Shown piece by piece: positions 3,389-28,634 of a stretch of 33,904 bases of DNA (position 1 is its first letter; each line of letters begins with the position of its first letter). The notes under the pieces are model-generated. The model saw nothing but the letters and a program-made list of their open reading frames with translations. It ran no database searches and was not told where the DNA came from. The stretch covers positions 1 to 33,904 of IMG/VR virus record IMGVR_UViG_3300025419_000117; one strand, given 5' to 3'. This DNA comes from a virus. The translations under genes and the position numbers were made by a program.

Positions 3389-5080
3389 TTATACTACTAA
3401 AAAGTAGTTCGTAACACCGTTAATTATTATTGGTATGGAAGAAAGTCGATGATTCACCGAGCCTCCTGACGTTGTTGCCACATATCTATCCTCTGGCCCT
3501 CCACCGCTAAAACTTGCCCCCTGAGATGCTGGTGCATAACTACCTGCCACTTGTGCTCCAACTTCAGAATATGTGTAAGAAGGCTTTGTAGCCGCCTTCG
3601 CCCATGCATAGACATCGCTTGCATCGCGAGCATCAGAAAGACGGTAATCGGATGTGCCACAAGCTCCTACATCGCTATAGGATAAGGCAGTACCGTTGAT
3701 TTTATATTGACCCCCAGAGTTAAGATTTATGTAACTTGAACCGTTAATCGGGCCGTAAAATACATGCATCTTAGATGCCTCATAATAAATATTGGCACTT
3801 ATTATAGTCAAAACATCCCCAGAGTATATATCTAACTGATGTAATATAGGATCTGGATTCTGATAGCCTCTGATATATCCACAAGCCGAACCTGCTTCAT
3901 CATAAAAATTAATCTGATTATTAGTTCCAACATCCACCCTCTTTCCACTTGCCGCCGTTTGAAGCGTAAATGCTGTCAGCGTTCCCGCCGTCACTTGTCC
4001 TGCGGTAATATTTCCTGCATATACTCCTGTACCATCCATATACACCGACACAATATCCCACGTCGTGCCATTCCAACGATTCATTTTATATTGACCGGTA
4101 ACATATGTGTTGAACCAAAAATCTCCGATCGATGGCGATCCCGGCGCCGAACTTCCATAGTAAGTTTTGTTCCCAAGATCACCACCGGTTATAAAACCAG
4201 CATCATTATTAAATCCGGAAATATTGATCGATCCTTGATTCGAGAATGTAAGTTCGCCCTTGATATAACAATTGCCCTCCAGATAAATTTTGTTCGCATA
4301 AAGACCATATCCAGATAATGCTCCCCACGTTGCCGACGTGATACCTGCAAGATTTCCAAATCTTGCTTTCTCAATACAGCCAGTTGCGGGATGTCCCATC
4401 CATATCACCGTCTGTGCATATGGACTATTGGCGCCATTGACTCCATCGACAGCGGTAACTTCATAATAACCGTTTCCACTCACGCCATAATCGAGAGCAA
4501 TCGTTCCCTTAGGAATCGTTCCGGAGCCAGTGCCGGCATTGGGTGCTGCAGACCGTGTGAAACTATACGTCTGCGTTGTGGGGTTTGCATTTGCATTCCG
4601 CGATGTGTACGTAACCGCTCCCCATACGTCCGCAACGGTGATCGTTGTATTATCGGCGCGACTCATAATCCGCAAACGAACAATATCTCCATTGGCAAAA
4701 ACATGTCCGGTAAATCCGGCAAATTCCTGTACAACTAATGGAGACGATGCACCGGCTGTCGGGATTATAAAATTAGCCGCTACCGGAGTGCTTGATGGAG
4801 AGATAATTTCCGAACCATTCAACGCTCTTTCTTGATCGACCACAAAAACTTTTATACGCATTTGATCTGCATAGAGGTATCGGAAGTCTCCCTCGCCGGC
4901 AGCGGATATTCTATAGCCAGTCATTTGCGAAACATAACTATTGCTGCTTATACCGCCGCAATTTGTTATCGCATTGTCGGCAGAGCTGCCAACGGTTATC
5001 ATCGCAAAACTGAATTGACCCGCTCCCGGATCCTTAAATGTTGCCTTGCGCCCTGTCTTATTAAATATTGGAATTTTCAT
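3389..5080 (-). CDS. Tail fibre / receptor-binding protein
   Basis: 563 aa. The N-terminal third is beta-rich. The middle has fibre-type collar motifs (YYGSSAPGSPSIGDFWFNT, then NRWNGTTWDIVSVYMDGTGVYAGNITAGQVTAGTLTA), a pattern widespread in tail-tip J-like and fibre proteins. After about residue 470 comes a shaft-like SDYRLSDARDASDVYAWAKA repeat seen in long fibres. It probably reads host-surface receptors. It lies downstream of the gp36 homologue, an unusual place because Mu keeps fibres at the end of the tail module. The C-terminus abuts the lipoprotein region, so fibre and lipoprotein may be a variable host-range or exclusion segment. Confidence 0.65.
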   Translation of the reverse strand: MKIPIFNKTGRKATFKDPGAGQFSFAMITVGSSADNAITNCGGISSNSYVSQMTGYRISAAGEGDFRYLYADQMRIKVFVVDQERALNGSEIISPSSTPVAANFIIPTAGASSPLVVQEFAGFTGHVFANGDIVRLRIMSRADNTTITVADVWGAVTYTSRNANANPTTQTYSFTRSAAPNAGTGSGTIPKGTIALDYGVSGNGYYEVTAVDGVNGANSPYAQTVIWMGHPATGCIEKARFGNLAGITSATWGALSGYGLYANKIYLEGNCYIKGELTFSNQGSINISGFNNDAGFITGGDLGNKTYYGSSAPGSPSIGDFWFNTYVTGQYKMNRWNGTTWDIVSVYMDGTGVYAGNITAGQVTAGTLTAFTLQTAASGKRVDVGTNNQINFYDEAGSACGYIRGYQNPDPILHQLDIYSGDVLTIISANIYYEASKMHVFYGPINGSSYINLNSGGQYKINGTALSYSDVGACGTSDYRLSDARDASDVYAWAKAATKPSYTYSEVGAQVAGSYAPASQGASFSGGGPEDRYVATTSGGSVNHRLSSIPIIINGVTNYFLVV

Positions 5081-7262: not shown

Positions 7263-8264
7263 TTATGTATTCGAAACTTTAATCGAATACGGCCATAAAC
7301 CGAACGCTGCGTTGAACCGCGCTTCGTTCGAGAATTGATACTCAGCTCGCGTGAATACCGATTCCGATTGCGGATCGTTTAGCATTACGAGGTGCGGTTC
7401 TTTGCGCATCTGCAATACAAACGGTCGGATCCGGTTGCCGACATAATCCAAATACCAATCGTCGGTATCCGTCAAGTAAGAATCTACTTGATAGGGGAAC
7501 GCACCTTTTAAAAGGTTGTCGGTCTGAAGAATTATATTCGCATTATACAACAGCTCGAACACGCCTTCAAGATCCGGTGGAATTGTGCAGAGGACTTGCA
7601 GCTTCCCGGGTGTGCGGATAAATGGCTTGCCTTGATCGGTCAAATATCTGCGAAGCGTTGTGCGCGCAGTCATCAAATCGGCAGTCACTTGAGCTAACGT
7701 ATGTCCGGTCCCGGTGAGGAGATTGCTCTGATTTCCGCTCTTGCCGGTATTATGATTCGTTGCATAGAAATCGTTGCCGTCGTAGCACAGCGTCGATGTT
7801 CCCGCAATGCGTAAATCGGTTATAAGTGTATCCTGCTTATATGTTCCCTCGTCTGCCATCTGGGGAATCAAGATGGCATATTTTCCGAGCCGGTCGTCTT
7901 CAATATCGTTGCGCCGCACGCCGATCGTAACTTCAAAATCTTTGTTCGGCACGCTGAATGTGAAACCGCGAATATCTTTTACAAATTTATCGCCTAACCA
8001 TTCGCGCATCATCGGTGTATCACCGAGCCATTGATAATCCTCGCTCGCACCTTCCGAATTCACCTTCATCGCAAACGCCGGCCACTTCGGCTGCAGCGCC
8101 TCCAATGCCTGATTAAACAGTGCATTGAAATTCTTTTGTAAGGCAACCAGCCCTGCAGCGCTCACGACCGTTCCGAAAACCATCACGCCCATGCGCCCGG
8201 AAGGACTCACCAGGCAGGCTACTAAAGCCAGAGCGATCAACGTCCATTTCATAAATCGTTTCAT
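7263..8264 (-). CDS. Major capsid protein, Mu gpT-like, with hydrophobic N-terminal extension
   Basis: 333 aa. The block from about residue 43 (QKNFNALFNQALE... then YQWLGDTPMMREWLGD... FSVPNKDFEVTIGVRRNDIEDDRLGKY) is the Mu gpT major head subunit pattern, and the C-terminus is full length. The first 42 residues are unusual: MKRFMKWTLIALALVAC gives a basic start, a hydrophobic core and a lipobox-like LVAC (14-17), then a second hydrophobic stretch (26-42). The start at 8264 has a strong AAGGAG site, whereas the internal ATGs (codons 25 and 28) have none, so the extension appears to be translated. The gene follows the decoration gene, as in Mu-like head operons. Confidence 0.85.
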   Translation of the reverse strand: MKRFMKWTLIALALVACLVSPSGRMGVMVFGTVVSAAGLVALQKNFNALFNQALEALQPKWPAFAMKVNSEGASEDYQWLGDTPMMREWLGDKFVKDIRGFTFSVPNKDFEVTIGVRRNDIEDDRLGKYAILIPQMADEGTYKQDTLITDLRIAGTSTLCYDGNDFYATNHNTGKSGNQSNLLTGTGHTLAQVTADLMTARTTLRRYLTDQGKPFIRTPGKLQVLCTIPPDLEGVFELLYNANIILQTDNLLKGAFPYQVDSYLTDTDDWYLDYVGNRIRPFVLQMRKEPHLVMLNDPQSESVFTRAEYQFSNEARFNAAFGLWPYSIKVSNT

Positions 8265-9377: not shown

Positions 9378-9405
9378 GTAAGGGTTCAAAATTTTGAACC
9401 CTTAC
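9378..9405. repeat. 28-nt perfect palindrome
   Basis: GTAAGGGTTCAAAA and its exact complement, abutting a second palindrome at 9413. It lies between the protease/scaffold stop and the decoration start. On the minus strand it could form a 14-bp hairpin in the mRNA. Confidence 0.7.
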
Positions 9406-15055: not shown

Positions 15056-15393
15056 TCGATCATCATACGATACTTTATGGAATCATTGCGCAATGGGAAC
15101 TTGCCGAAAGGTTGCGGCGCGATGACCGCACCTTCGATGGCTGGAAATTTCTTGCAAATGCAATAGGACATAAAAGCGCATCGACTCTCCGCAATATGTG
15201 CCTCGAACGATCTACAAATAATTCTGCAAAACTCGGTTACGATGATTCTATTATCATCATGTCCATCACCAACGATTATAGACTTTTTTATGCTATGAAG
15301 ACACGGCTCATCGAACTGCGGCGCTCTGAGGCAGAGCGTCTCAATCAACTCAATTTATTTTCCGAGCCAATCCGCTCCCTGGAGATGCAATGA
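15052..15393 (+). CDS. Putative phage regulatory protein, CII/CP76-like
   Basis: 113 aa, coupled to both neighbours by overlapping starts. The core FDGWKFLANAIGHKSASTLRNMCLERSTNNSAKLGYDDSIIIMSITNDYRLF follows the pattern of the phage regulatory CII (CP76) family: lA..lG.ks..tLrn, then a Leu/Gly stretch and tgD..L. Directly before the transposase, it may modulate transposition-operon expression. Moderate confidence. Confidence 0.45.
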   Translation: MIDHHTILYGIIAQWELAERLRRDDRTFDGWKFLANAIGHKSASTLRNMCLERSTNNSAKLGYDDSIIIMSITNDYRLFYAMKTRLIELRRSEAERLNQLNLFSEPIRSLEMQ

Positions 15394-17297
15394 ACGAAGA
15401 ATTACAAATACCAATCGTGCCATCAAATAAAATCACTCCGGAAATTATCGCGCGTGTGAATACCTTTATGAGATTTGTAATCGTCAAAGAAGGTATCGGA
15501 GATGCGAGAAAACAATTAAGCGCGGCGACGGAGCTCACGGAGCCGACTATCCATTGGTATTGCATTCGCTTGAGACAAATGTTCCACCTCGCGCCTCGCT
15601 CTCCGCTCGCATCTATAGCAGCACATCCGCAGCTCAGGCAGGCATTGGAAGTTCTTTTCACGCGCAAGCAGCGCAGCGATAAAGCTTCATTGAGAAGTGG
15701 AGGCAATATCGTTGTGCTCTGGGGCGACGATTTAAAGCAAGTGAGCCTTGAACAGTATGTAATCTCTCAATATGGACACAAGGGACAATCGTCTCTCAAT
15801 GTCTACAACGCTCTTTGCAACGAGTCGGCCATCGGAAAAGTATTTTGCTTAACAGAAAACGGCATGATAAAATGCACACATGAAGAGCTTCCATCGCTCT
15901 CTACCATCGTTCGTTTTTTACGCGTGCGAAGAGACGATGCACTGAATCCGGATGCAGAAGAAGCGCGGGCAATACAACGATCCCGCATGTCGCAGAAACA
16001 ATTCGATGCCGTTAATTTTTTCGTGAGACAGAACCCAAACGAATTTCGCGTGCGCGGCTATCTCGAAATCGACGACACAGAAACCGATGTGCAGATACTT
16101 CGCACAAACGGACAGTCGGATCGATTCTGGTGCACGCACGTTGTCGATTTCCATTCCTCGCTCGGCTGTTCATACTATTTAAGTTACATGCCGAATGCCG
16201 AGACTGCCTCGCTTGCTCTCCGTAATGCTTTTCTCGGCAATCAAATTAAGATCGCAACGCCTGGAACAGACAAAGATGGAAATCCAGTTATAAATTATGT
16301 ATCACTTCCCAATGCTATGGACTTGCCCGATCATATCATGCTTGATTGGGGAAAAACATTTCACAATAAACAATTGAGCCGCGTCATGGGCGATATTGAA
16401 GCAACGGATTCACGCAAGACAGCCTTTAATAGGTTTTGCGAAATACATCGCTCCACACCTTATCATCCGCAAAGTAAACCGCACGTTGAACGATCATTCG
16501 GAGTGCTCAATCAGTTTTGGAAACTTCTTCCCGGATATACCGGCTCAAATTATTCCGGCAAACCTGAATCGTTGAAGGAAGAAATTAAGCAAGGCGTTTT
16601 ATTAGCCGAAGGCGATTTTATCCGCCTCTTCGAACTTGCATGGAATGTCTATAATAATAAACCGATGCGGCGTCTTAACGGACTAAGCCGCGTGCAATAT
16701 TATCTCGCGCGGAATCAACATCCGAAGCAGATGAGTGAACGAGTGCTTGACTTCCTGTTGATGAAGAATGATAAACATCCACAGGTGAGACAGGGGCACT
16801 TCACACTCAACACAATAGATTATTTTAGCCCCGACCTCGCCCGTCCGCGATATGAAAAGCAACGCTGCGATGTTTTTTACGATCCGCAAAACGCCGGTTT
16901 CGTTCACGTCTATTTTCAAGGGATATATGCAGCCACGGCGGTCAATAGCGATCTCATCGGACAGACACAGCGCGAGGCGATCGAAATCATTAAACAACGC
17001 GGACGTGAGGAAAGTATTTTACAAAAGAAAGTGAACGAGATCCGCATGGGCGGATCGCACCTGCAAGCAAAAGCAAATGCGTTCATGGGTATGATTCAAA
17101 ATGTCTCGCTCTTACCGATGGAACAAATTAACCGCAACTCAACACCGATTACTATTTTAACAAATATCGAACAGCAGGCAAGTGAAGTCGCTGGCGCTCA
17201 GCAGGAAGCCGAACGCATGGCAGAAATGGAAAAGAAGTCTCGCAGTAATAAGAAAGTGAAACTCGATTTAACATTGATTCAATCACGTATTGCATAA
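15390..17297 (+). CDS. Transposase, MuA-like DDE recombinase
   Basis: 635 aa. The retroviral-integrase-type core has the first Asp in YLEIDDTETD (D228 or D229), the second in HIMLDWGKTFHN (D319) and the Glu in SKPHVERSFGVLNQFW (E367), matching the D, D, E order of MuA. N-terminal DNA-binding helices precede it; the C-terminus is a lysine/glutamine-rich helix likely to contact MuB. GGAG lies just upstream of the ATG, which overlaps the previous stop. It carries out strand cleavage and transfer during lysogenic integration and lytic replication. Length is close to MuA (663 aa). Confidence 0.9.
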   Translation: MNEELQIPIVPSNKITPEIIARVNTFMRFVIVKEGIGDARKQLSAATELTEPTIHWYCIRLRQMFHLAPRSPLASIAAHPQLRQALEVLFTRKQRSDKASLRSGGNIVVLWGDDLKQVSLEQYVISQYGHKGQSSLNVYNALCNESAIGKVFCLTENGMIKCTHEELPSLSTIVRFLRVRRDDALNPDAEEARAIQRSRMSQKQFDAVNFFVRQNPNEFRVRGYLEIDDTETDVQILRTNGQSDRFWCTHVVDFHSSLGCSYYLSYMPNAETASLALRNAFLGNQIKIATPGTDKDGNPVINYVSLPNAMDLPDHIMLDWGKTFHNKQLSRVMGDIEATDSRKTAFNRFCEIHRSTPYHPQSKPHVERSFGVLNQFWKLLPGYTGSNYSGKPESLKEEIKQGVLLAEGDFIRLFELAWNVYNNKPMRRLNGLSRVQYYLARNQHPKQMSERVLDFLLMKNDKHPQVRQGHFTLNTIDYFSPDLARPRYEKQRCDVFYDPQNAGFVHVYFQGIYAATAVNSDLIGQTQREAIEIIKQRGREESILQKKVNEIRMGGSHLQAKANAFMGMIQNVSLLPMEQINRNSTPITILTNIEQQASEVAGAQQEAERMAEMEKKSRSNKKVKLDLTLIQSRIA

Positions 17298-17317: not shown

Positions 17318-18271
17318 ATGAGTTCTGTACGCTTAGAATTGATACACCGGGTTAATTTTACATCTGATTCTATCGGAGAAGTACGCCAACGCATCGAGCG
17401 TTTACGCGAAGAAGGCGAAATATCCCTTAAAGATCTCGAGAAGGGAACAAGTTATGCATCGAGCACTTGGAGCCAATATCTCAGCAACACCTACAAAGGC
17501 GATGCTTCGAATCTTGACGAACTTCTTATTCAGTTTTATCGCAAATGGGTACTTCGGAATACGATTATCAAAACGAACGTCGTTGAAGACATCCATGGCT
17601 TTATCGAAATTGCATGGATGCGCCGCCGCATCGGCGAGATCACCGGAAAATTCGGACGGGGAAAAACGAAGGGAGCCAGTTCTTATGTTGCCAAACATCC
17701 GGAGTATGCTGTGATGGTCCGCCTCACCGGAGTTTCTAACGCGAACGAACTCATCAGGCTCATCAGCGAGGAAATTGGAGTAACGGATATGCGCGGCAGC
17801 AGAAGCGATCGACTCCATTCACTTATTCGAAATTTGCAGCGCAAAAACCGCCTCATCATCATCGACGAGGCGGATAGATTGAAACCGGATTCTCTTTCTC
17901 TCGTGCAAGATATTCATGGCGACGATCAGGCAAATTGCGGTGTAATACTTATCGGAACGGACCGTTTGAACACCCTCCTCAGGCAGCCAGAACTTGGCTA
18001 TATGAACCGCCGCGTAAAAATGGAACTGAAAATTGACGACATCGACATCAAAGAATCCAAGAACATCGCAAACATGTACCCGCACGATCTTGATGACAAA
18101 CAAATGAAACAACTCTGGGATTTTTGTAAGAAACACTTTGGTGTCGGCAGTCTGGTAAATATTCTTGACAACGCCTACGATGTTATGGCGCTGAAGAATT
18201 TAAAGAAGATAGATGCCTCATGTGTCAATGAAGCATACACACATCCAGAACCAATACATATAGACGATTGA
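17318..18271 (+). CDS. MuB-like transposition ATPase
   Basis: 317 aa. N-terminal HTH-like region (DLEKGTSYASSTWSQYLSNTYKGD, 39-62) as in MuB, then an AAA+ core: Walker A GKFGRGKT (110-117), Walker B LIIIDEAD (179-186), sensor I VILIGTD. MuB binds target DNA, activates the transposase and gives target immunity. The gene follows the transposase by 20 bp and has an AAAGAGG site. Confidence 0.85.
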   Translation: MSSVRLELIHRVNFTSDSIGEVRQRIERLREEGEISLKDLEKGTSYASSTWSQYLSNTYKGDASNLDELLIQFYRKWVLRNTIIKTNVVEDIHGFIEIAWMRRRIGEITGKFGRGKTKGASSYVAKHPEYAVMVRLTGVSNANELIRLISEEIGVTDMRGSRSDRLHSLIRNLQRKNRLIIIDEADRLKPDSLSLVQDIHGDDQANCGVILIGTDRLNTLLRQPELGYMNRRVKMELKIDDIDIKESKNIANMYPHDLDDKQMKQLWDFCKKHFGVGSLVNILDNAYDVMALKNLKKIDASCVNEAYTHPEPIHIDD

Positions 18272-18279
18272 GGTGTAAG

Positions 18280-18471
18280 ATGGACGCATATTCTCGTCAA
18301 GATGTGATAGGAATGATAAATAATTTTGTGAATCGGGAAGGTCGCATTCCAATGCAGCATGAATTTCTTTCTGTGAACGGTTTGCCCGGGAGAAGCGTGT
18401 TGGCACGCAATACAAATAATATTGCAGATCGTCCTGTTCCCGGCGAAGCGACGAGGTTTACGACAATATGA
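18280..18471 (+). CDS. Truncated homing-endonuclease-associated repeat protein
   Basis: 63 aa from the ATG at 18280 (GAGGTG upstream). Residues 4-43 (SRQDVIGMINNFVNREGRIPMQHEFLSVNGLPGRSVL) match the first repeat of the proteins at 21216 and 22965 (family pattern I..i..f....GR.P...e....LPG.s...), but the F-G-S-W-N...A-G-L half is missing, replaced by an unrelated tail. Probably a fragment left by recombination. Its stop overlaps the GemA-like start (ATGA), so translation may be coupled. Confidence 0.5.
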   Translation: MDAYSRQDVIGMINNFVNREGRIPMQHEFLSVNGLPGRSVLARNTNNIADRPVPGEATRFTTI

Positions 18472-18968
18472 ATCGTCAATCTAATTTCTCCCCCTTACCA
18501 AGGGGGAGAGCAAGAGGGGGTCGCAATTTCTTAATCCAAAGAATCCACGTTCTCAAACGGGATCTCTCGCTCGACGATGAAACGTACCGGACCATCCTGC
18601 GATCTATCTCGGGCAAGGAATCCTGTGCGGACATCGATGATGAATATCTCAATCTCATCAAGCAGCAGCTGGAGAGCGTGCAGCAACGGCGGCAACTTGG
18701 ATCATCTCTCAAACTGAAGAACGAAAATGAGCATCGTAAAATCGCAAAACTAGGATTTCTCTTGGGTTGGTCATGGCATGATATTGCTGGTTTTTGTTTT
18801 AAACAAACTGGCAAACGATCTACACATACATGCGACAATTTGGGATTGCGTAAAATAATATCCGGCATGACAAATATAATAAATGATAAACTTGCAGACG
18901 GTTCACTCAAATTGGCACACAAAGATTTAGAAATATTTCTAAGGCACACTCAGCAATCTGACACTTAA
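18468..18968 (+). CDS. Mu gp16/GemA-like protein (DUF1018)
   Basis: 166 aa. Residues 22-60 (IQRIHVLKRDLSLDDETYRTILRSISGKESCADIDDEYLNLI) are the GemA/gp16 signature, followed by a LGFLLGWSWHDIAGFCFKQTGKRSTHTCDNLGLRKII segment typical of the family. In Mu, GemA affects host gene expression and DNA gyrase-linked processes. Residues about 7-18 (FSPLPRGRARGG) are translated from a palindromic repeat, and no better start exists after it, so the repeat seems to be built into the protein. Confidence 0.75.
   Translation: MNRQSNFSPLPRGRARGGRNFLIQRIHVLKRDLSLDDETYRTILRSISGKESCADIDDEYLNLIKQQLESVQQRRQLGSSLKLKNENEHRKIAKLGFLLGWSWHDIAGFCFKQTGKRSTHTCDNLGLRKIISGMTNIINDKLADGSLKLAHKDLEIFLRHTQQSDT
18487..18522. 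repeat. CTCCCC hairpin repeat, copy 7, inside GemA-like gene
   Basis: TCTCCCCCTT (18487-18496) pairs with AAGGGGGAGA (18500-18509), then GCAAGAGGGGGTCGC. In frame with the gp16-like gene and translated as SPLPRGRARGG. Confidence 0.8.
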
Positions 18969-20223: not shown

Positions 20224-20812
20224 ACTGAAATACACAGATCAACAGATGCTTGACCGCGCATGCGTGTTTTATAAAAAGAATAACAAACCTCCGCGCATCG
20301 CCGATTTTAACCCGGGTTTTGCCGTGACCGCCGCTAAAAGATTCGGCAGCTGGAATAACTACATCGATGCAGCACTGAAGATGCGTGCGAACTATCACAA
20401 TTGGAAACCGGAAGAATTAACGTTCCTCGTGCGCACGTTTTGGGAAAAGAATCATCGTTTCCCTGTGCAGAATGAATTGACGGAAGACGGCAGGGACATC
20501 GACAAGATTCTTATAAAACATTTCGGATCGATCAATAAATATTTTGAAAGTGCGATCGGCACAAGTCCGCGCGTGGAAATCCTTCGCGCAATAAAAGAAT
20601 TAACGCCTCCAGGCTGCCATGTCGCAACTCCTGCAGAGATCCTTGCGCAGATCCGCAAGAAGATTCCTTTTCCAACAAACCTTTGCTCATTCAATATGCG
20701 CACTCTTTCTGTCGATGGTTATGTAATGAGTGGGAAGTATGATAGAACTCGCTGGCACAAATTAACTCCTAAAGGTCGTGAGTTTTTAAAGTCTTTCGAG
20801 GCTTCGAAATGA
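20213..20812 (+). CDS. Homing-endonuclease-associated repeat protein with winged-helix C-terminus
   Basis: 199 aa. Two copies of the HNH-associated repeat (PF18780-type): residues 8-60 (QMLDRACVFYKKNNKPPRIADF... AAKRFGSWNNYIDAALKM) and 65-117 (LTFLVRTFWEKNHRFPVQNELTEDGRDIDKILIKHFGSINKYFESAIG). The C-terminal 75 residues resemble a winged helix (TPAEILAQIRKKIP... HKLTPKGREFLKSF). No HNH nuclease is present. Repeats of this family probably bind DNA, so this may be a regulator. It precedes the first leader-RNA cassette. Confidence 0.65.
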   Translation: MPHKLKYTDQQMLDRACVFYKKNNKPPRIADFNPGFAVTAAKRFGSWNNYIDAALKMRANYHNWKPEELTFLVRTFWEKNHRFPVQNELTEDGRDIDKILIKHFGSINKYFESAIGTSPRVEILRAIKELTPPGCHVATPAEILAQIRKKIPFPTNLCSFNMRTLSVDGYVMSGKYDRTRWHKLTPKGREFLKSFEASK

Positions 20813-21015
20813 TGCACTTGCTTTTCATATTCCTCCTTTGTAACTTGGTACCGCTAATACAATTGAGCGGTGCCCGGTCCGTAATTCCGGAATTTTCGTT
20901 TTTACGGGTAAATAAATCACTGGCTCACTCTCCAGAATTCCGCGAGGATCTGGGACGCTACTCAATTGGCGTTAGCAAGAGTGAGCCATTTTTTCATGCT
21001 AAAACAATTGAGGAG
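20813..21015 (+). ncRNA. Structured leader RNA, cassette 1
   Basis: Lies between the stop at 20812 and the 65-aa gene at 21022. Hairpin P1: GGTACCGCT (20847-20855) with AGCGGTGCC (20866-20874). P2: CCGTAA (20879-20884) with TTACGG (20902-20907). P3: an 11-bp outer stem TGGCTCACTCT (20921-20931) with AGAGTGAGCCA (20978-20988), enclosing CCAGA/TCTGG (20932-20936, 20949-20953) and a second inner hairpin (ACGC/GCGT, 20955 and 20969), followed by a U-rich TTTTTT run and then AGGAGG. The same three-part layout recurs at 22562 and 25505 with different stem sequences. Could be an attenuator or a separate small RNA. Confidence 0.7.
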
Positions 21016-21021
21016 GTCGCC

Positions 21022-21219
21022 ATGACCTGCAACAAACGCATCGCCGCGCTCCGTGTCGAAACGGATTGCGCTGTAAAAAGTCTCATCCTTCAATTCTCAC
21101 CGATCGACAAGCACCGTCGCTATCTCGCGAAACTCAATCCGGATAAAATAAAGCTCCATTTGTCCTGGATCGTCCGCAATCTAAAACAGATCGATGCGTT
21201 ACAAGGAGGTGTGAGATGA
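21022..21219 (+). CDS. 65-aa helical protein, cassette 1
   Basis: 65 aa from the ATG at 21022 (AGGAGG nine bases upstream). Sequence pattern NKRIAALRVETD-AVKSLILQFSPIDKHRRYLAKLNP followed by DKIKLHLSWIVRNLKQIDAL: two or three amphipathic helices. Nearly identical proteins occur at 22771 and 25723, and diverged relatives flank the holin (10607, 11153). An in-frame upstream extension to 20809 exists but crosses the structured RNA and is not conserved, so I reject it. Coupled to the repeat protein by ATGA overlap. Function unknown. Confidence 0.75.
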   Translation: MTCNKRIAALRVETDCAVKSLILQFSPIDKHRRYLAKLNPDKIKLHLSWIVRNLKQIDALQGGVR

Positions 21220-21728
21220 GAACTAAATCATTCTATTTTCATACCACTCGTTCAAAAAAGAATATTATTGAAGCAATTATCAATTTCCATTCTAAACATG
21301 GAATACCACCTAAAGGGAAAGACTTTAATTCGGATAATGATTTACCAGGGACGAGTACCGTTATCGAATATTTCGGAACCATGAACGAAGCGATTTTAGC
21401 GGCCGGGTTTATTCCAGAATCCTCTAAAAGACAAAATGGATTTAAATATTCAGACGAGGAAATGATAAGGTCTGTTCGCTCGATTGCGATAAAAATAGGT
21501 CACTTGCCGACGATTACTGAGTGGGATAAACGCCGTGATGCATACATGCCAACACGTTTGACTTATAAATTGCGCTTTAAAAAATGGCACATTGTTCTAA
21601 GAAAAACGGGATTGAAATTCTCAATTACAAGGTACATTCTTCGTGACATACTTTTTAAAATTGCTGGAACGATTATGTCTCTAGCGAGATATTTCGAACA
21701 ACCCGCTTCACCCAGGAGGAAACCATGA
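21216..21728 (+). CDS. Homing-endonuclease-associated repeat protein, cassette 1
   Basis: 170 aa. Two HNH-associated repeats: residues 13-68 (KKNIIEAIINFHSKHGIPPKGKDFNS...LPGTSTVIEYFGTMNEAILAAGFIP) and 76-133 (SDEEMIRSVRSIAIKIGHLPTITEW...TYKLRFKKWHIVLRKTGLK). A C-terminal amphipathic helix (ITRYILRDILFKIAGTIMSLARYFEQP) follows. No nuclease domain. Predicted DNA-binding; the paralogue at 22965 is closest, that at 25917 more distant. Confidence 0.7.
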   Translation: MRTKSFYFHTTRSKKNIIEAIINFHSKHGIPPKGKDFNSDNDLPGTSTVIEYFGTMNEAILAAGFIPESSKRQNGFKYSDEEMIRSVRSIAIKIGHLPTITEWDKRRDAYMPTRLTYKLRFKKWHIVLRKTGLKFSITRYILRDILFKIAGTIMSLARYFEQPASPRRKP

Positions 21729-21955
21729 TTGAATTACAAAAAACACCTTGCAACCACATCCATGACTTTACACCGATCGTCGAGGGCAACGAAACAGTTG
21801 GAATGATTTGCATCCTCGACGGCTGCGGATTTTCCGTTCGCGAGGATATGCATCGCAGTCATATCACTATTTCTGCAAATACCGATTTACAATTAAGCGA
21901 TGTCCTCCCTAATTTTTTCTCTTCTCATAACGGACAGAAGGGCGGGAGATTATAA
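21725..21955 (+). CDS. Small zinc-ribbon-like protein
   Basis: 76 aa, AGGAGGAAACC before the ATG. CNHIHDF (residues 9-15) and CILDGCGF (28-36) give a C-x2-H...C-x4-C pattern that could bind one zinc. Overlaps the next gene by one base. Mu Com, the translational activator of mom, is a small zinc-finger protein, but this protein lacks the spacing and sequence I would expect, so no equivalence is claimed. Confidence 0.45.
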   Translation: MIELQKTPCNHIHDFTPIVEGNETVGMICILDGCGFSVREDMHRSHITISANTDLQLSDVLPNFFSSHNGQKGGRL

Positions 21956-22143
21956 TGGAGTGCGTCAGCATCATCTCGGCCGATGATGGTTCCTGCTGCA
22001 CTATCCTCGTGCGAGACGGTGCGGACGTTGTTGAGTTGGCGGGAAAAAATAATGCCTGGCGGACTCTCTTGAAGGCAATAATTAAAATGAAGGCGTTGAA
22101 GTTTCAAAAATATATTCGACATGACAAGCTTCTCAAAAAATAA
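21955..22143 (+). CDS. Small unknown protein
   Basis: 62 aa, start overlapping the preceding TAA. Short beta segment (CVSIISADDGSCCTILVRDGADVVELAG) then a basic helix (NNAWRTLLKAIIKMKALKFQKYIRHDKLLKK). Overlaps the next gene by 23 bp. No family recognised. Confidence 0.45.
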   Translation: MECVSIISADDGSCCTILVRDGADVVELAGKNNAWRTLLKAIIKMKALKFQKYIRHDKLLKK

Positions 22144-22561
22144 TCTGCGCGCAGATCACATCCGGAGATTCGGACAAGCATCGGGTACGCCGCTGTTCGA
22201 CTCCGTTGTAGGGGCACGTCATGACGTGCCCGCTTCACCTCCTCGCCCGACAGAGATACAGCAAGCCCGATTTGAAGCCGCCCCAAAAGCCATTCCAACG
22301 GGCAATGATACTAAAAGGCTCGCGCGTACAATACAATTAGCCGAGGCGGTGCACCTGGCGGAAGACCAACAAAAGGTATTTGAACTACTTCTAAACGAGG
22401 GTCCAATGACAAATAAAGAGATGGGTGAACGGCTCGGAATGGATGCCAGCACTATCTCAGCGAGGAACAATGAACTTCGCGCATTTGGACTTATAAAAGA
22501 TGCAGGTAAAAGACAATGCCGCATTACAAGAATGATCGTTCATGCTTGGGACATAAGGTGA
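22121..22561 (+). CDS. Winged-helix protein with repeat-derived segment
   Basis: 146 aa. The C-terminal 70 residues are a MarR-like winged helix: DQQKVFELLLNEGPMTNKEMGERLGMDASTISARNNELRAFGLI. The N-terminal half is proline-rich; residues about 29-39 (VVGARHDVPAS) come from a palindromic repeat at 22212. No ribosome site at the ATG; coupled to the previous gene. Likely regulator of accessory genes. Confidence 0.55.
   Translation: MTSFSKNNLRADHIRRFGQASGTPLFDSVVGARHDVPASPPRPTEIQQARFEAAPKAIPTGNDTKRLARTIQLAEAVHLAEDQQKVFELLLNEGPMTNKEMGERLGMDASTISARNNELRAFGLIKDAGKRQCRITRMIVHAWDIR
22212..22231. repeat. Palindromic GGGGC-type repeat inside the winged-helix gene
   Basis: GGGCACGTCA and its complement, preceded by GTAG on the plus strand; same outer pattern as 1387, 2474 and 9413. 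Translated as VGARHDVP. Confidence 0.7.
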
Positions 22562-22764
22562 ACCACTTGCTTTTCAATATTAGAATTCTTAGCTTGCTGA
22601 CGTTCATAATCAGCAAGCGGTGCCCGGTCCGTCATTCCGGAATTTTCATTTACGGACCATTAATTTATTGGGCGAACCCTTCCGAATCCGTGAGGACCGG
22701 AGCACTTCTTGTTGAGTGTGAACATGGGTTCGCCGTTTTATGTTTCGTTCAAAACAACAAGGAG
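22562..22764 (+). ncRNA. Structured leader RNA, cassette 2
   Basis: Begins right after the stop at 22561. P1: GCTTGCTGA (22592-22600) with TCAGCAAGC (22610-22618). P2: GGTCCGT (22626-22632) with ACGGACC (22652-22658). P3: outer stem GGCGAACCC (22671-22679) with GGGTTCGCC (22726-22734), enclosing TCCG/CGGA (22681 and 22698) and CACTT/GAGTG (22703 and 22714), followed by GTTTTATGTTT and AGGAGG. 29 of 30 bases are shared with cassette 1 over 22618-22647 (20868-20897), yet in a different frame relative to the downstream gene; the P3 stems share pairing but not sequence. Confidence 0.75.
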
Positions 22765-22770
22765 GTCATC

Positions 22771-22968
22771 ATGACCAGATTCAAACGTATCGCCGCGCTC
22801 CGTGTCGAAACGGACTCTGCTGTAAAATCTTTAATACTTCAATTCTCACCGATCGACAAACACCGTCGCTATCTCGCGAAACTCGATCCGGCAAAAATCC
22901 AGCTTCACCTTTCGTGGATCGTGCGCAATCTAAAGCAGATCGATGCCCTGCAGGGAGGTGCAAGATGA
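22771..22968 (+). CDS. 65-aa helical protein, cassette 2
   Basis: 65 aa from the ATG at 22771 (AAGGAGG upstream). Matches the cassette 1 protein at about nine positions in ten (RIAALRVETDSAVKSLILQFSPIDKHRRYLAKLDP, then AKIQLHLSWIVRNLKQIDAL). Followed by the repeat-protein start overlapping its stop. The strong DNA identity to cassette 1 also suggests recent duplication of the cassette. Confidence 0.75.
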   Translation: MTRFKRIAALRVETDSAVKSLILQFSPIDKHRRYLAKLDPAKIQLHLSWIVRNLKQIDALQGGAR

Positions 22969-23462
22969 TTTTCCTCAGAACCAATCAAAATACACCCATG
23001 TCTAAGAAGGATATTATTGTTGCTATAAAGCGATTTGTTGAAAAAAATGGAAGACCTCCCACGAAAAAAGAATTAAATCGTGCGAACGAATTGCCAGGAT
23101 ACTCTACAATTGTCCGTCAGTTTAAAACGAAGAATGCAGCTATGTTGGCAGCTGGGCTTGTTCCAATACCCGCGAATAGAACATATAAGTTGAAATGGAC
23201 TGATGAGGAATTGATAAACTTCGTTATTGTTGTAGCAAAAAGAATTGGACACCTGCCGATGCTTACGGAGTTCGAAAAAAAGCGTGATCGTCACATGCCA
23301 ACAGGTTATACTTATTACGTGCGATTCAACAAATGGCAAATTGTTTTAAGAAAGACAGGGTTAAGATTTTCGATAACAAGATACCTCCTTCGCCGAAGCA
23401 TTCTTTCTCTCGCCGAGGGGATTTCTGCGTTGGCTGAATTTTTAGAGCAACCAAAATTATAA
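22965..23462 (+). CDS. Homing-endonuclease-associated repeat protein, cassette 2
   Basis: 165 aa. Repeats at residues 14-69 (KKDIIVAIKRFVEKNGRPPTKKELNRANELPGYSTIVRQF...MLAAGLVP) and 77-134 (TDEELINFVIVVAKRIGHLPMLTEFEKKRD...YYVRFNKWQIVLRKTGLR), then an ITRYLLRRSILSLAEGISALAEFLEQP tail shared with cassette 1. No nuclease residues. Likely DNA- or nucleic-acid-binding. Confidence 0.7.
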   Translation: MIFLRTNQNTPMSKKDIIVAIKRFVEKNGRPPTKKELNRANELPGYSTIVRQFKTKNAAMLAAGLVPIPANRTYKLKWTDEELINFVIVVAKRIGHLPMLTEFEKKRDRHMPTGYTYYVRFNKWQIVLRKTGLRFSITRYLLRRSILSLAEGISALAEFLEQPKL

Positions 23463-24238
23463 TGAGCCCTCAAATTGAAATAGTTACGGCAGTCATGGAG
23501 AAATACAAACTCCTCTGGGAAGCTATGTACCATAACTATTGGACGCCGAGTAGTATGAACATCACAGAAACCTTGGATATTTTAAAACCCGTTCTGCCCG
23601 GATTTGATCCTTATTCAAAGGAGGATCTTCTCAGGGCACTCGACGGTTTTTTCAGATGCAAAGAAGACTGGATGCTGAGTTGCAAACACTCTTATACAAC
23701 TTTCATCAAACATATTCCGAGATGGTTGCCGGCAAAAACCCCGCAACTCGTCGTTCCTCCTAAACCACAAGAAGGGGTTTATAACTGTCAGGATTGTGGA
23801 AACGAATTACAGCTAAGTGAGTTATGTTTAAAATGCTTCCCTCTCTGTAGCAATTGCGGATTCCAACACGCAGCATCTGAGACGTGCGAGGAAGTCGCAA
23901 AGCGCGAGGAGAGATTGAAAAGAATGTTCGGCTTTCCAGAGAAGCGCGGTCAATCGGCTAAGCCAAGTAAAGATATGAAAGATGTAGAAAAAAGATTTAC
24001 TACACAGCCAAGCCCGAATCATCATCCTACAGTGAAGCCATTAGCCCTTATGAATTATCTGGTAAAACTAATAACGCCAAAAGGCGGAACTGTTCTTGAT
24101 CCATTTATGGGAAGCGGAAGCACCGGTGTTGCCTGCCGGAATCTTGGAATGAATTTTATAGGAATTGAAAAAGAGCAAGAGTATTTAGACATCGCCCGCA
24201 AGCGTATTTTTTCAGATATGTTTGCCGTGACGACCTAA
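23462..24238 (+). CDS. Half-methyltransferase fused to a cysteine-rich domain
   Basis: 258 aa. Residues 186-246 are the C-terminal half of a beta-class N6-adenine/N4-cytosine methyltransferase: NHHPTVKPLALMNYL, then DPFMGSGSTG (213-222, SAM-binding motif I) and FIGIEKEQEYLDIARKRI. The catalytic (D/N/S)PP(Y/W) motif, expected in the N-terminal half, is absent. In its place are an unknown helical domain (1-100) and a zinc-ribbon region with four CxxC-like pairs (CQDC, CLKC, CSNC, plus lone Cys; 109-142). A SAM-binding regulator, or half of a split enzyme needing a partner, is possible. Otherwise a recombination relic. Confidence 0.55.
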   Translation: MSPQIEIVTAVMEKYKLLWEAMYHNYWTPSSMNITETLDILKPVLPGFDPYSKEDLLRALDGFFRCKEDWMLSCKHSYTTFIKHIPRWLPAKTPQLVVPPKPQEGVYNCQDCGNELQLSELCLKCFPLCSNCGFQHAASETCEEVAKREERLKRMFGFPEKRGQSAKPSKDMKDVEKRFTTQPSPNHHPTVKPLALMNYLVKLITPKGGTVLDPFMGSGSTGVACRNLGMNFIGIEKEQEYLDIARKRIFSDMFAVTT

Positions 24239-24322
24239 CGGTTACGCTTAACCTGCATACTGAAAGAACTTGAATAACAGATGAACCCGAAGCAAAGAAA
24301 ATATACTGATACGGAAAATTAC

Positions 24323-24356
24323 ACCAACGCCCATTATGTCAGGTTGAAGCGTTGGT
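24323..24356 (+). promoter_or_regulatory. Stem-loop at the Mom-like start
   Basis: ACCAACGC (24323-24330) pairs with GCGTTGGT (24349-24356), an 8-bp stem that occludes the TTG at 24352 and ends two bases before the ATG at 24358. No ribosome site is visible. Mu mom is translationally silenced by a hairpin over its start until Com binds, so a similar control is plausible but unproven. Confidence 0.5.
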
Positions 24357-24981
24357 TATGTTGCATACGCTTTTCAAATTGCGAGCGTTTTTTATGATAG
24401 CCCAACGCGCAGATAGTGTAAGAGTTACACATCCGTTATTCCAAGCGGAAGGTGGCGGCGTGATTCCGACCTCTGCGCTCCATTTACGCATAGTGGAAAT
24501 TAACAGGTACAGAGCAAGAGACTTAAATTTATTATGGCATAGCAGATTGCCAATATACAACACTGGATTTTGTCTGAACTCTATAATTTCGTTTGGTGCG
24601 GAATACGATGGAGTTATATACGCGATTGCAATATGGACTAATCCGGTTGCTCCCGCGTTACCACAGCATACTTGGTTGGAGTTGCGAAGAATGGCGATTG
24701 CACCAGACGCACCAAGATACACGGCAAGTCGGATGCTTGGGATAATGGCAAAACTTATTAAGAGTAAATTTCCTCAAATAATAAATTTAATCTCGTATCA
24801 GGACAAAGAGGTACATAAGGGAACGATATACAAGGCCGCAGGATGGAAAGCAATACAAGAACACAAAGGGGGTTCTTGGAATAGACCAAACGCGACAAAC
24901 AGTTGGAACGGAAAGAAAAGAACAAGACCTGATTTGAACAAAGCCACCGGAGCTAAGGTAAGGTGGGAGCGAGCAATTTGA
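24352..24981 (+). CDS. mom-like: Mom-like DNA modification protein (anti-restriction)
   Basis: 209 aa from TTG at 24352, or 207 aa from the ATG at 24358. The core WLELRRMAIAPDAPRYTASRML (about 108-129), then LISYQDKEVHKGTIYKAAGW (146-165), is the GNAT-like signature of Mu Mom and relatives, which convert adenines to a carbamoyl-type derivative and shield phage DNA from restriction. The N-terminal HPLFQAEGGGVIPTSALHL segment is, as I recall it, typical of the longer phage branch of this family. It lies next to a half-methyltransferase in an anti-restriction cargo block between cassettes 2 and 3. Confidence 0.65.
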   Translation: MVMLHTLFKLRAFFMIAQRADSVRVTHPLFQAEGGGVIPTSALHLRIVEINRYRARDLNLLWHSRLPIYNTGFCLNSIISFGAEYDGVIYAIAIWTNPVAPALPQHTWLELRRMAIAPDAPRYTASRMLGIMAKLIKSKFPQIINLISYQDKEVHKGTIYKAAGWKAIQEHKGGSWNRPNATNSWNGKKRTRPDLNKATGAKVRWERAI

Positions 24982-25008
24982 AGTATGACAACATAACAGG
25001 AGAAATTA

Positions 25009-25326
25009 ATGAACAAAGAAATACGACAACTCGACGATGCGATACTCGCAGAGATGCAACGAGAAAATAGAAACGGACTTAGTTTCCGCGAGATAAAAAA
25101 AATATGCAGAGCCGCGATACCATTTCTTGAATGCTACGGGAAAGAGGCATTAGACGGCAATCAGTTTATACACGAAGTTTTGGGCGCGATAGAGAATTTA
25201 GAGAATAATGGCATCGTCAAAGTGACTCGGCGCGGCAAATTTATTCTTCGCATCGATCTCACCGATCGCGGGAAAGAATTAATCAAGAACACAGTTTTCT
25301 CCGATCCGAAAGGACCTCATGCCTAA
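25009..25326 (+). CDS. Winged-helix DNA-binding protein
   Basis: 105 aa with CAGGAGAAAT upstream of the ATG. A winged-helix core: FREIKKICRAAIPFLECYG..., VLGAIENLENNGIVKVTRRGKFILRIDLTDRGKELI, where the last strand-helix is the wing. Probable transcriptional regulator of the cargo region. Overlaps the next start by 8 bp. Confidence 0.55.
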   Translation: MNKEIRQLDDAILAEMQRENRNGLSFREIKKICRAAIPFLECYGKEALDGNQFIHEVLGAIENLENNGIVKVTRRGKFILRIDLTDRGKELIKNTVFSDPKGPHA

Positions 25327-25504
25327 TATTTCGCTCCTCATAGAGCTGATTCAAAAGATTAATAAATCCACTTCGAAGGCCCATCTCGATCTTGATTACG
25401 ACGGGCGCGAGTTCCACTGGTCCGTAAAACAGCCCAACATAACTGCCTCTGAGTGGACTCCGAGTGAGTTGCGAGAAAAGAAAGAGACCTTCCACCCACA
25501 TTGA
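25319..25504 (+). CDS. Small unknown protein
   Basis: 61 aa, AAAGGACCTC before the ATG. Helical start (ISLLIELIQKINKSTSKAHLDL), a W-containing beta piece (EFHWSVKQP) and an acidic end (SEWTPSELREKKETF). Stop immediately precedes the third leader RNA. Confidence 0.45.
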   Translation: MPNISLLIELIQKINKSTSKAHLDLDYDGREFHWSVKQPNITASEWTPSELREKKETFHPH

Positions 25505-25711
25505 TTATGAACGACTTGACTTTGATACCGCCGCTTAGTAACTTTCTGATGTCCGAAATATACAGAAGCGGCAATACCGGTCCGAGAACCGGTGTCGTCA
25601 TTTTTATAGGCACCCGTGTGATCCGTAATCAATCGGATCGGAGTTGCTTCTGTAGCTCTTGGACGCGCGGGTGCTATTTATTATTCCCGCTAACTTTTGT
25701 CCAACAATTAC
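25505..25711 (+). ncRNA. Structured leader RNA, cassette 3
   Basis: P1: GCCGCTT with AAGCGGC (3' arm 25566-25572), with an alternative nested TTCTG/CAGAA pairing. P2: ACCGGT (25576-25581), loop CCGAGA, ACCGGT (25588-25593). P3: GCACCCGTGT (25610-25619) pairs with GCGCGGGTGC (25665-25674) allowing two G-U pairs, enclosing GATCCG/CGGATC (25620 and 25634) and a weak second inner hairpin, followed by TATTTATTATT and CAGGAGG. CCGGTCCG (25577) lies 146 nt before the start, against 148 and 147 nt in cassettes 1 and 2. Same architecture with almost no stem sequence shared. Confidence 0.65.
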
Positions 25712-25722
25712 AGGAGGGCATC

Positions 25723-25920
25723 ATGCCTCGCAATAAACGCATCGCCGCGTTACGTCTGGAGACAGACGCCGCAGTAAAAAGCCTCATCTTACAATTCTCA
25801 CCGATCGACAATCACTGTCGGTATCTTTCGAAGCTCGATCCGGGAAGAATTAAACTCCATTTATCTTGGATCGTTCGTAATCTTCAACAGATAAAAGCCA
25901 TGGAAGGAGGTGCGAGATGA
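25723..25920 (+). CDS. 65-aa helical protein, cassette 3
   Basis: 65 aa from the ATG at 25723 (CAGGAGGGC upstream). RIAALRLETDAAVKSLILQFSPIDNHCRYLSKLDP then GRIKLHLSWIVRNLQQIKAM; somewhat more diverged than cassettes 1 and 2. Coupled to the repeat protein by ATGA overlap. Confidence 0.75.
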   Translation: MPRNKRIAALRLETDAAVKSLILQFSPIDNHCRYLSKLDPGRIKLHLSWIVRNLQQIKAMEGGAR

Positions 25921-26402
25921 AGAAAATATATTCAAAAGAAATGATGATCGACGCAATATTAAAAAATTACAATGAAACAGGCAGAATCCCTCAGCAGGAA
26001 GAATGGAACGCATCAAACAGACATCCATGTCGAGAATTAATTCATCGAAGTTTTGGATCTTTTAATAATGCAATTACCGCCGCAGGCCTGATCCCTCGAA
26101 CATATTGGGTGAGTATTCCAAAAGACATTATGATAGAAAGGTTGCGTGTTTTCGCGAAGAAACTTGGAAGGTCACCATGTGTACAGGAAATGGACTGTTT
26201 ACGTCCTTCAAATGTTCCATGTCGAAAGACATATGAAGTCACTTTTGGTGGTTTTAAAAAAGCATTATTGGCGGCAGGATTAAAACCACCTGAATATGAC
26301 GACATTGATCCGTCAGAACGTGATACGATTCTTTTCGCACTTCGCATCCATCGTTTTATAAAACGGCTGATAAACCTTTTTAAGATTGATTCTCATTTTT
26401 AG
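25917..26402 (+). CDS. Homing-endonuclease-associated repeat protein, cassette 3
   Basis: 161 aa. Repeats at residues 6-60 (KEMMIDAILKNYNETGRIPQQEEWNASNRHPCRELIHRSFGSFNNAITAAGLIP) and 66-124 (KDIMIERLRVFAKKLGRSPCVQEM...KTYEVTFGGFKKALLAAGLKP), then a C-terminal helix rich in Ile, Arg and Lys (ILFALRIHRFIKRLINLF). It keeps the canonical F-G-S-F-N...A-A-G-L ending better than the other two. Last gene before the terminator. Confidence 0.7.
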   Translation: MKKIYSKEMMIDAILKNYNETGRIPQQEEWNASNRHPCRELIHRSFGSFNNAITAAGLIPRTYWVSIPKDIMIERLRVFAKKLGRSPCVQEMDCLRPSNVPCRKTYEVTFGGFKKALLAAGLKPPEYDDIDPSERDTILFALRIHRFIKRLINLFKIDSHF

Positions 26403-26981: not shown

Positions 26982-28634
26982 ATGCTTACTCAACGCGATT
27001 TTGACAAACAATATACAGATCTGATGCAGCGCATTCAGAAACAAGCGACGCCATTTCCGAATGACAGCGCCGAGAAGAAGCGCGCGCGTATCGCTCGTGC
27101 TAAAGTCGACAAGTTCTTCTTCTGTATAACCTACCTGCCTCACTATTGCGAGACAAAAGAAGAATATCGGACGATCTGGAAGATTCCGGATGCTCCGCTG
27201 GATCCAGTCGACGCAGGTTTCGCTCCATTCCATCCAGAATTTTTTAAGATCGCAGAGCTGCCAAATATATTCTCCATCATCGCCGCGTTCCGCGAGAGTT
27301 CTAAAGATACATTGTTAGGCAAGGCCGATGTTTTGCATAAAATATTATTCAGAGACCGATGGTTTATACCGATAATTTGCAAGACTCAGGATAAAGCCGA
27401 GACGAAATGCGTTCCGATCAAACTCGAGTTGGAAATCAACGAGCGCATCAAGAACGACTTTGGCAAATTGCAGGGAAGCGTATTATGGGAGTTCGGCGAC
27501 TTCATCACCACCACCGGCCGCAAGGTAAAGGGATATGGACGCGAGCAATCGCTGCGCGGTGAGGAAAACTTTGGACACCGACCCGATCACATTATACTTA
27601 ACGACATTGACGATCCCACGAAGCCGGATTCTCCGGCACTCGTCCAAAAATTTATCGACAGTGTAAAGCAGGACATTCTCAAAGCAGTCAATTCTCCACA
27701 CTGGAGCGCATTGCTGCTTTGTAATTTCACAGTCAAAGGAAATATTATTGATGAGCTGATGACCGGAAAATACACGTCGCATTTTAACAAACGTATCTTC
27801 CGTGCACTCATCGAAAATCCGCTCGCAACAAAAGACGATCGCGCAATTGCCAAACAATGCCGCGAAGCCGGTTTTCCTGATAGCGAAAAGTCGAGTTGGC
27901 AATTTCGCCATCCAACATTGAAGCTCCTGCAGGACCGTAAGAACGATCCGGAGACGTTCCAACCCGAAATGCAGATGATGCCGCGTAGCCGGCGTGACCA
28001 GAAATTCAAAGATAATTATTTCCGCTATCATACGCGTGAGCAGCTCGCAGCGCGGACGTACACAAACTATACTTTCGTGGATCCATCTGCAAAGGACGCC
28101 GGTGATTACAAGGCTGTCATCACCGTTGGCGTTGCAGCGTTGCCGGATGGCACAATACATGTTCCGGTCCGTCGCGCTTGGATTCAACAGGGACCGATCG
28201 ACGAAATGATTGACGCGACATACCGCCAAAGACGCGAGTTCCATTCGAAACTTGTCGGCGTGGAAACAAATGGATTTCAAATCCTTCTTAAACGCGAATA
28301 CATGCGGCTTCAAAAGAAGTATAAAGAGATGCTGCCATTCTTCGAAGTCGTTCACACCGGAGAGAGTAAAGAGAGCCGCATCGAGCGGATCGTTCCATTC
28401 GTGAAAGAAGGAATTATCACATTCGATCAATCCGATCCCGATCAGGATTTGTTGATTCGGCAATGCAAAGCGTTTCCGCAAGGCGGACAAGTTTCTGCAG
28501 GCGGACTTGGTGATGACGGACCGGATACACTCGCCGGTTGCATTGAATTGATCGAAAAATTTCCGCACGCCGGTGAAGTAGCGTATGAGAGTATCTCAAA
28601 ACGCGAAGCCGTTTTTGAAAAAGGCACATGGTGA
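26982..28634 (+). CDS. Terminase large subunit
   Basis: 550 aa. ATPase half: Walker A-like region FRESSKDT (103-110), which departs from the usual GxGKS/T, and Walker B HIILNDID (203-210). Nuclease half: D367 in FVDPSAKDAGD, E428 in GVETNGFQ, and D511/D512/D515 in LGDDGPDTLAG, the three acidic metal-binding sites of the RNaseH-like nuclease. Packages DNA into the prohead. Overlapping readings further upstream are in another gene's frame and are not used. Two bases separate it from the small subunit. Confidence 0.85.
   Translation: MLTQRDFDKQYTDLMQRIQKQATPFPNDSAEKKRARIARAKVDKFFFCITYLPHYCETKEEYRTIWKIPDAPLDPVDAGFAPFHPEFFKIAELPNIFSIIAAFRESSKDTLLGKADVLHKILFRDRWFIPIICKTQDKAETKCVPIKLELEINERIKNDFGKLQGSVLWEFGDFITTTGRKVKGYGREQSLRGEENFGHRPDHIILNDIDDPTKPDSPALVQKFIDSVKQDILKAVNSPHWSALLLCNFTVKGNIIDELMTGKYTSHFNKRIFRALIENPLATKDDRAIAKQCREAGFPDSEKSSWQFRHPTLKLLQDRKNDPETFQPEMQMMPRSRRDQKFKDNYFRYHTREQLAARTYTNYTFVDPSAKDAGDYKAVITVGVAALPDGTIHVPVRRAWIQQGPIDEMIDATYRQRREFHSKLVGVETNGFQILLKREYMRLQKKYKEMLPFFEVVHTGESKESRIERIVPFVKEGIITFDQSDPDQDLLIRQCKAFPQGGQVSAGGLGDDGPDTLAGCIELIEKFPHAGEVAYESISKREAVFEKGTW

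Follow-up and report, generated by a model that had tools for sequence, protein, structure and literature searches.

We analysed a 33,904-nucleotide stretch of DNA (the window; IMG/VR virus record IMGVR_UViG_3300025419_000117), the record of a Mu-like transposable phage in which a structured leader RNA stands three times in front of a gene for a 65-amino-acid (aa) protein. These leaders apparently belong to a real, so far undescribed RNA family with about 30 copies in Ignavibacteria phages, prophages and chromosomes, whose core is predicted to be a pseudoknot, since the loop of one hairpin (h2) and its 3' flank are complementary to the RNA's 5' segment in essentially all copies. Where a gene follows closely, the same loop is in most copies also complementary to a second, nearly identical version of that segment, which lies at the Shine-Dalgarno sequence or start codon of the gene. 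The best-supported function would be a cis-acting translation-start switch, with a single loop for which the 5' end of the RNA competes with the translation start; we lean towards this reading, with transcription attenuation and action in trans as serious alternatives.

A structured RNA conserved beyond the phage

The first-pass annotation, made from the letters of the window, had described three leaders with stems P1, P2 and a branched P3 ahead of 65-aa genes (ATG at 21022, 22771 and 25723), and all of these lie where it placed them. The CCGGTCCG block shared by the leaders (starting at 20874, 22624 and 25577) is 148, 147 and 146 nt upstream of the respective ATGs, and the outer stems of P3 pair completely in each copy with different bases, as had been described. 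P1 is present as one of several ways in which the 5' segment can pair; the extents given for the leaders hold as coordinates, but the first ~40 nt of each appear to be promoter DNA and not RNA. The promoter, the pseudoknot and the complementarity to the translation start are additions to that annotation.

In folding energy, two leaders beat all of 200 dinucleotide shuffles and the remaining one beats 199 (z -4.9, -2.9 and -4.4 for the three). The structure was tested over P2, the P3 outer stem and the hairpin h1 in 20 homologues aligned by covariance model, where 93.1% of cells are paired, compared with 67% in shuffles. Changes on both sides occur in 21 of 23 pairs, and double-change cells number 116, against 33.7 in shuffles and at most 31 with the pairing partners slid, an effect whose size is to be read with the alignment in mind, as this was fitted to the structure and so favours covariation. 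Covariation across the ~30 copies strongly supports the earlier proposal that selection acts on RNA structure over protein. The best-conserved unpaired letters are the h1 tetraloop (GNRA within CCGYGAGG) and the strand joining h2 to P3, GCGTnnACA; the UCCG loop of P2 is conserved less strongly.

Related phages were reached via their terminase, because no close relatives of the 65-aa protein could be detected. Covariance model R1, built from copy 1 and the copy at locus L006, scores copy 1, part of its own training, at 101.8 bits (E 1.6e-22); it recovered copy 2 (53.3 bits, E 1.6e-10), L003 and L004, none of them in training, at E 1e-10 to 1e-13, so that a search starting from a window copy does find homologues beyond this phage. 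With model R2, matches were found in 13 of 391 host-class genomes, one of which (L028) was a simple repeat and was discarded, and R3 extended the set to further copies from the phylum, a multi-copy family and viral contigs. The distribution is sporadic, in keeping with mobile DNA, and one genome (G032) holds six copies. A minus-strand match at L006:8945-9051 was discarded as spurious.

Copy 3 is more distant, at 20.2 bits (E 0.0075) with R2 and 22.1 bits with filters off. It is 66% identical over 164 nt to L007 (E 5e-5), which also shares its layout of leader, 70-aa gene and HNH_repeat protein, and the two form a diverged subtype lacking the GNRA hairpin. The annotation had not recognised the class, and comparison with Rfam 15 likewise gave no match at gathering score and no plausible match at permissive thresholds; an exact-match DNA search with the shared block and blastn against named phages returned nothing.

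Among 49 viral matches to a short h1 pattern most are not the RNA, and only L063 and L073 were confirmed. The L073 copy (2305-2441) lies in a viral contig whose neighbouring genes look unlike those of Ignavibacteria phages, which suggests that the host range of the RNA is wider than these phages.

One loop with two near-identical partners

All features of the three window copies are on the plus strand. In copy 1, the predicted RNA spans 20850-20994 and its 5' copy consists of GCTAA (20853-20857) and CAATTGAG (20860-20867), within P1 (20850-20871). P2 with its UCCG loop follows at 20874-20890, then the P3 outer stem (20921-20931/20978-20988) enclosing the GNRA hairpin h1 (20932-20953) and the h2 loop CTCAATTG (20961-20968) with its flank TTAGCA (20972-20977), and then a U-run (20989-20994). 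The loop and flank are complementary to GCTAA..CAATTGAG on the 5' side and again to the 3' copy at 20997-21016, where TGCTAA and CAATTGAG extend into the Shine-Dalgarno sequence GAGGAGG; the duplex with its own 3' copy, at -21.7 kcal/mol, is the best of 22.

Copies 2 and 3 repeat this layout with other letters. The predicted RNA of copy 2 (22600-22741, with a GNRA hairpin) has GTTCA (22602-22606) and CAGCAAG (22611-22617) as its 5' copy, P2 at 22624-22640, the P3 outer stem at 22671-22679/22726-22734, the h2 loop CTTGTTG at 22708-22714 with flank TGAAC (22719-22723), a U-rich tract at 22735-22741, and a 3' copy (22747-22765) in which GTTCA and CAACAAG run into the Shine-Dalgarno AAGGAGG (own duplex -19.4 kcal/mol, best of 22). 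For copy 3 (predicted RNA 25548-25685) the 5' copy is GTCC (25551-25554) and CAGAAGC (25563-25569), P2 begins at 25576, the P3 outer stem lies at 25610-25619/25665-25674, the loop TTCTGTA within 25646-25654 and its flank TTGGAC at 25659-25664; the 3' copy (25699-25717) joins GTCCAA and TACAGGA to the Shine-Dalgarno AGGAGG, and its duplex with the loop (-19.7 kcal/mol) is the second of 22.

Elsewhere in the family the 3' copy reaches into the start codon (..GCACTATG and similar, in L025, L029, L030, L031 and L050) or covers the ATG itself (L032, L052), and in most gene-linked copies the gene starts 6-37 nt past the core. Across the family, loops with their 3' flanks pair with their own 5' region at a mean of -23.9 kcal/mol, compared with -15.2 for the regions of other copies, and with their own translation-start region at -16.9 compared with -12.2; neither difference was reached in 20,000 permutations. 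Eight copies found after the idea had been formed, and not used to form it, served as confirmation: only 1 in 50,000 random pairings was as good for the 5' region and 7 in 50,000 for the translation start (seven of the eight have a gene). The triple match of loop, 5' copy and 3' copy covaries across unrelated sequences. The three window copies are mutually orthogonal, the loop of copy 1 pairing with the translation-initiation regions of copies 1, 2 and 3 at -17.2, -6.6 and -10.2 kcal/mol, and in many copies the two alternative pairings are similar in energy, as they would be in a switch. Judged by complementarity, an alternative structure would sequester the ribosome-binding site, and a conserved core (the CCGYGAGG hairpin) is coupled to what resembles an expression platform (the 3' copy at the translation start).

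Promoter, terminator-like stem and open frame

Upstream of the RNA, TTG-N19-21-TAnnTT is found in 19 of 30 copies (shuffles give a mean of 1.2 and a maximum of 5), mostly 51-62 nt before the core. In the window it occupies 20818-20848 (TTG 20818-20820, a 20-nt spacer and TAACTTGG at 20841-20848), 22567-22597 (TTG ... TAGCTTGC) and 25516-25546 (TTG ... TAACTTTC). The motif agrees with that reported for sigma-ABfr in Bacteroides, a -7 consensus TAnnTTTG with a -33 TTTG (PMC7366714), and from this match the conserved ACTTGCTTTTCA block, with the ~40 nt at the 5' end of each leader, is best read as promoter DNA of the FCB (Fibrobacteres-Chlorobi-Bacteroidetes) type. The RNAs should consequently begin near 20850, 22600 and 25548. 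At the other end, the G+C-rich P3 stem is followed by a U-run as in intrinsic terminators (mean T fraction 0.61 over the 10 nt past P3), weak in L003 and L024.

Of the 12 copies that are terminase-linked or viral, 9 have a reading frame that starts 30-90 nt upstream and stays open across the core, where 1.8 would be expected (tail probability 3e-6); of the 18 others only 2 do. The division into these two groups was made after looking. Starting at NTGA, the frame is in register with the small gene in the three window copies (20809-21021, 22558-22770, 25507-25722), in L007 (8406-8582) and in L017 (shuffle probabilities 0.02-0.13 each), and it closes 19-70 nt beyond the core in L006, L018, L024 and L063. 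We infer from this frame that ribosomes travel across the RNA when it is part of an operon transcript; P3 and the blocking helix would be melted as they pass.

The element as we picture it would comprise a promoter, a ~140-nt structured RNA and a terminator-like stem (P3 and U-run), and would sit immediately ahead of an accessory gene's ribosome-binding site, with the h2 loop and its 3' flank as the switching strand. Paired with the 5' copy, the loop would close the pseudoknot and leave the translation start free, presumably the ON state; paired with the 3' copy, it would block initiation. The P2 loop (UCCG) and the h1 hairpin (GNRA) may form the sensing or docking part. A ligand or protein might throw the switch, and ribosomes coming from the gene upstream could do so in phage operons by traversing the RNA on the open frame.

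Several observations weigh against the translation-start switch, beginning with the after-the-fact division in the open-frame test. Because transcription produces the 5' copy before the 3' copy, and pairing with it is often the stronger, the OFF state would need a trigger. No match to a translation start is seen in L004, L018, L021, L022 and L063; of these, L022 and L063 lack a gene immediately downstream and the gene of L021 begins 103 nt away, so the RNA would have a role beyond translation-start control. In L025, L026, L030 and L049 the translation-start duplex is just modestly better than cross-pairings.

Some of this evidence would also fit a discrete small RNA gene, in which a promoter, a ~140-nt RNA and a terminator yield an h2 loop that represses a neighbouring or other mRNA in trans, in the manner of a type I antitoxin: the RNA has its own promoter and terminator-like end, its loop is complementary to a translation start, and L022, L024 and L063 have no adjacent gene. 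We nevertheless think this unlikely, as in most copies the target lies only 10-30 nt downstream on the same strand, there is no room for a second promoter between terminator and gene, each loop fits its own neighbour, and in the free RNA the loop would be occupied by the 5' copy. A little less probable is that the RNA acts mainly as a transcription attenuator, with P3 and the U-run terminating unless ribosomes or a bound factor stop P3 from forming, and the translation-start complementarity being secondary. The U-rich tract behind a strong stem, the frame open through P3 in the phage-type copies and the position of L024 and L063 immediately before terminase genes would suit such a device, which however leaves the covariation of loop and 3' copy down to the Shine-Dalgarno or start codon unexplained and has to contend with the weak U-runs of L003 and L024.

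The annotation had held that conserved peptide frames across the leader would speak against an RNA element. An open frame does cross the leaders of the phage copies, yet without conservation of the peptide: the shared block is read in different frames. That the leader instead encodes a conserved N-terminal extension of the small protein, as the five in-register frames might indicate, is very improbable given the different frames of the shared 36-nt block in copies 1 and 2, the in-frame stops in homologues elsewhere and the dominance of compensatory changes. Least probable of all is the end of a mobile element of the HEARO/IscB or TnpB omega-RNA kind, with the repeats as target duplications and the left-edge NTGA as target site: cassettes are indeed missing from the same sites in relatives, the left edges of phage copies are ATGA or GTGA and the 5' and 3' copies look like direct repeats, but Rfam gives no HEARO or other match, Pfam finds no RuvC/HNH or TnpB nuclease in the cassettes, a target duplication does not predict an internal loop covarying with both flanks, the 5' block reads as promoter, and most chromosomal copies have no NTGA start.

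Genes behind the RNA, related systems and phage setting

The annotation had spoken of a conserved small-protein cassette; the conserved part is the RNA, and the genes behind it vary or, in L022, L024 and L063, are absent, L024 and L063 standing just before terminase genes. In the window each leader is followed by a 65-aa gene (21022-21219, 22771-22968, 25723-25920) and an HNH_repeat-type protein: 21216-21728 (170 aa; PF18780, Pfam E 1.1e-19), 22965-23462 (assigned as a homologue of the other two and not by Pfam scan) and 25917-26402 (PF18780, E 1.2e-21). In L003/L010, L004/L005 and L006 the RNA precedes a different small gene, in L035 a RadC-like JAB protein (E 2.9e-40) and in L047 a BRO antirepressor (E 4.9e-18); further genes encode small proteins outside any Pfam family. 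PADLOC gave no meaningful defence-system match. Downstream of the RNA in L029, L031 (G032) and L023, a small two-helix gene comes first and then an open reading frame (ORF) that by eye looks like a Phd-type antitoxin, and IS1595-like transposase ORFs were seen by eye a few kb from L029-L031.

The 65-aa proteins, 77-89% identical among themselves, have no direct relatives in viral contigs, phage records or bacterial genomes. An AlphaFold model (mean pLDDT 81; helices 3-25, 28-37 and 40-62) predicts a soluble-looking three-helix hairpin; with the charged sequence, this does not fit a small hydrophobic membrane toxin. A PDB fold search with this model returned only generic helical hairpins (best E 0.73), and a resemblance to Rop, which the helical hairpin had brought to mind, is accordingly not claimed.

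Riboswitch-type leaders control expression through platforms in which anti-Shine-Dalgarno and anti-anti-Shine-Dalgarno strands exchange. The RNA resembles them in joining a conserved core to a strand that exchanges two partners, one of them the Shine-Dalgarno; it differs in that no Rfam class fits, the downstream genes suggest no ligand, and the competing partners are near-identical and lie at the RNA 5' end and the gene start. Late leaders of the lambda pR'-6S RNA-tR' type place a promoter, a short RNA and a terminator at the start of an operon, and L024 and L063 likewise have promoter, short RNA and terminator-like stem just before terminase genes, although we recognised no antitermination factor or site and most copies precede small accessory genes. 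HEARO/omega-RNA (RF02033) of IscB elements is likewise structured and pseudoknotted and lies ahead of genes in mobile settings, but there was no RF02033 covariance match and no IscB-like nuclease; where flanks were scanned for IscB/IsrB (not all were), the cassette proteins of copies 1 and 3 gave HNH_repeat or nothing, and other loci RadC, BRO or nothing. HDV (hepatitis delta virus)-like and group I folds, compared by topology only, mismatch in strand order or conserved positions.

In the TimPR type I toxin-antitoxin system, the mRNA of the small inner-membrane toxin TimP, controlled by the antisense RNA TimR, adopts mutually exclusive conformations, in which a conserved structure sequesters the ribosome-binding site and the active form has a long-range pseudoknot (PMC11228461). 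The RNA described here shares the sequestration, the alternative conformations and the long-range pseudoknot, as judged by complementarity alone, whereas its fold is unrelated, its blocking strand pairs with two near-duplicate sequences, and the 65-aa product is predicted to be a soluble helical hairpin. An antisense partner like TimR was not seen, no search for antisense promoters having been made.

The switching architecture of this apparently undescribed family is clear: a single loop matches two nearly identical sequences, and the translation start is one of these. With three mutually orthogonal copies in a single phage and ~30 preceding unrelated genes, there is a natural set for studying how a loop is re-targeted. 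More tentatively, the element may be a mobile, re-programmable cassette of a promoter, an invariant pseudoknotted core and one rewritable specificity loop, in which loop and RNA 5' end might be rewritten together to fit the translation start of whichever gene follows, so that several copies within a genome would be mutually insulated switches that answer a common signal. Should the loop prove freely re-programmable, it would offer an existing design for insulated translational switches. A core that senses a signal would raise the new question of its ligand or protein partner, in a group that has been little studied.

The early region, downstream of MuB and upstream of the terminase, holds all three elements. 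Transposase-like (15390-17297), MuB-like (17318-18271) and gp16-like (18468-18968) ORFs were assigned from sequence and position, and the terminase large subunit (26982-28634) by a separate analysis. The host probably belongs to the Ignavibacteriae, since the Ignavibacteriae metagenome-assembled genome PLMS01000114 holds a terminase 94% identical to that of the window. The cassette appears to come and go, as cassette 1 is missing at the corresponding place in L003 and L006. A CCCCCTTAACAAGGGGGAGAC-type palindrome occupies this empty site in L003 (~3831-3853), and others lie at gene junctions in L007 (~8117-8143 and ~9380-9400). A tRNA-like match at 24407-24478 is below threshold (22 bits, gathering 29) and is not called by ARAGORN; it is possibly a tRNA remnant. 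For the DNA methylase ORF at 23462-24238, the match to the N6_N4_Mtase profile is confined to the profile's C-terminal part (137-220 of 221); the ORF may be a truncated or split methyltransferase. A REP-like (repetitive extragenic palindromic) repeat, TAGGGNCACG...CGTGNCC, occurs once in the window (22209-22231, inside the gene at 22121-22561) and three times in L003 (191-213, 9445-9467 and 11666-11688).

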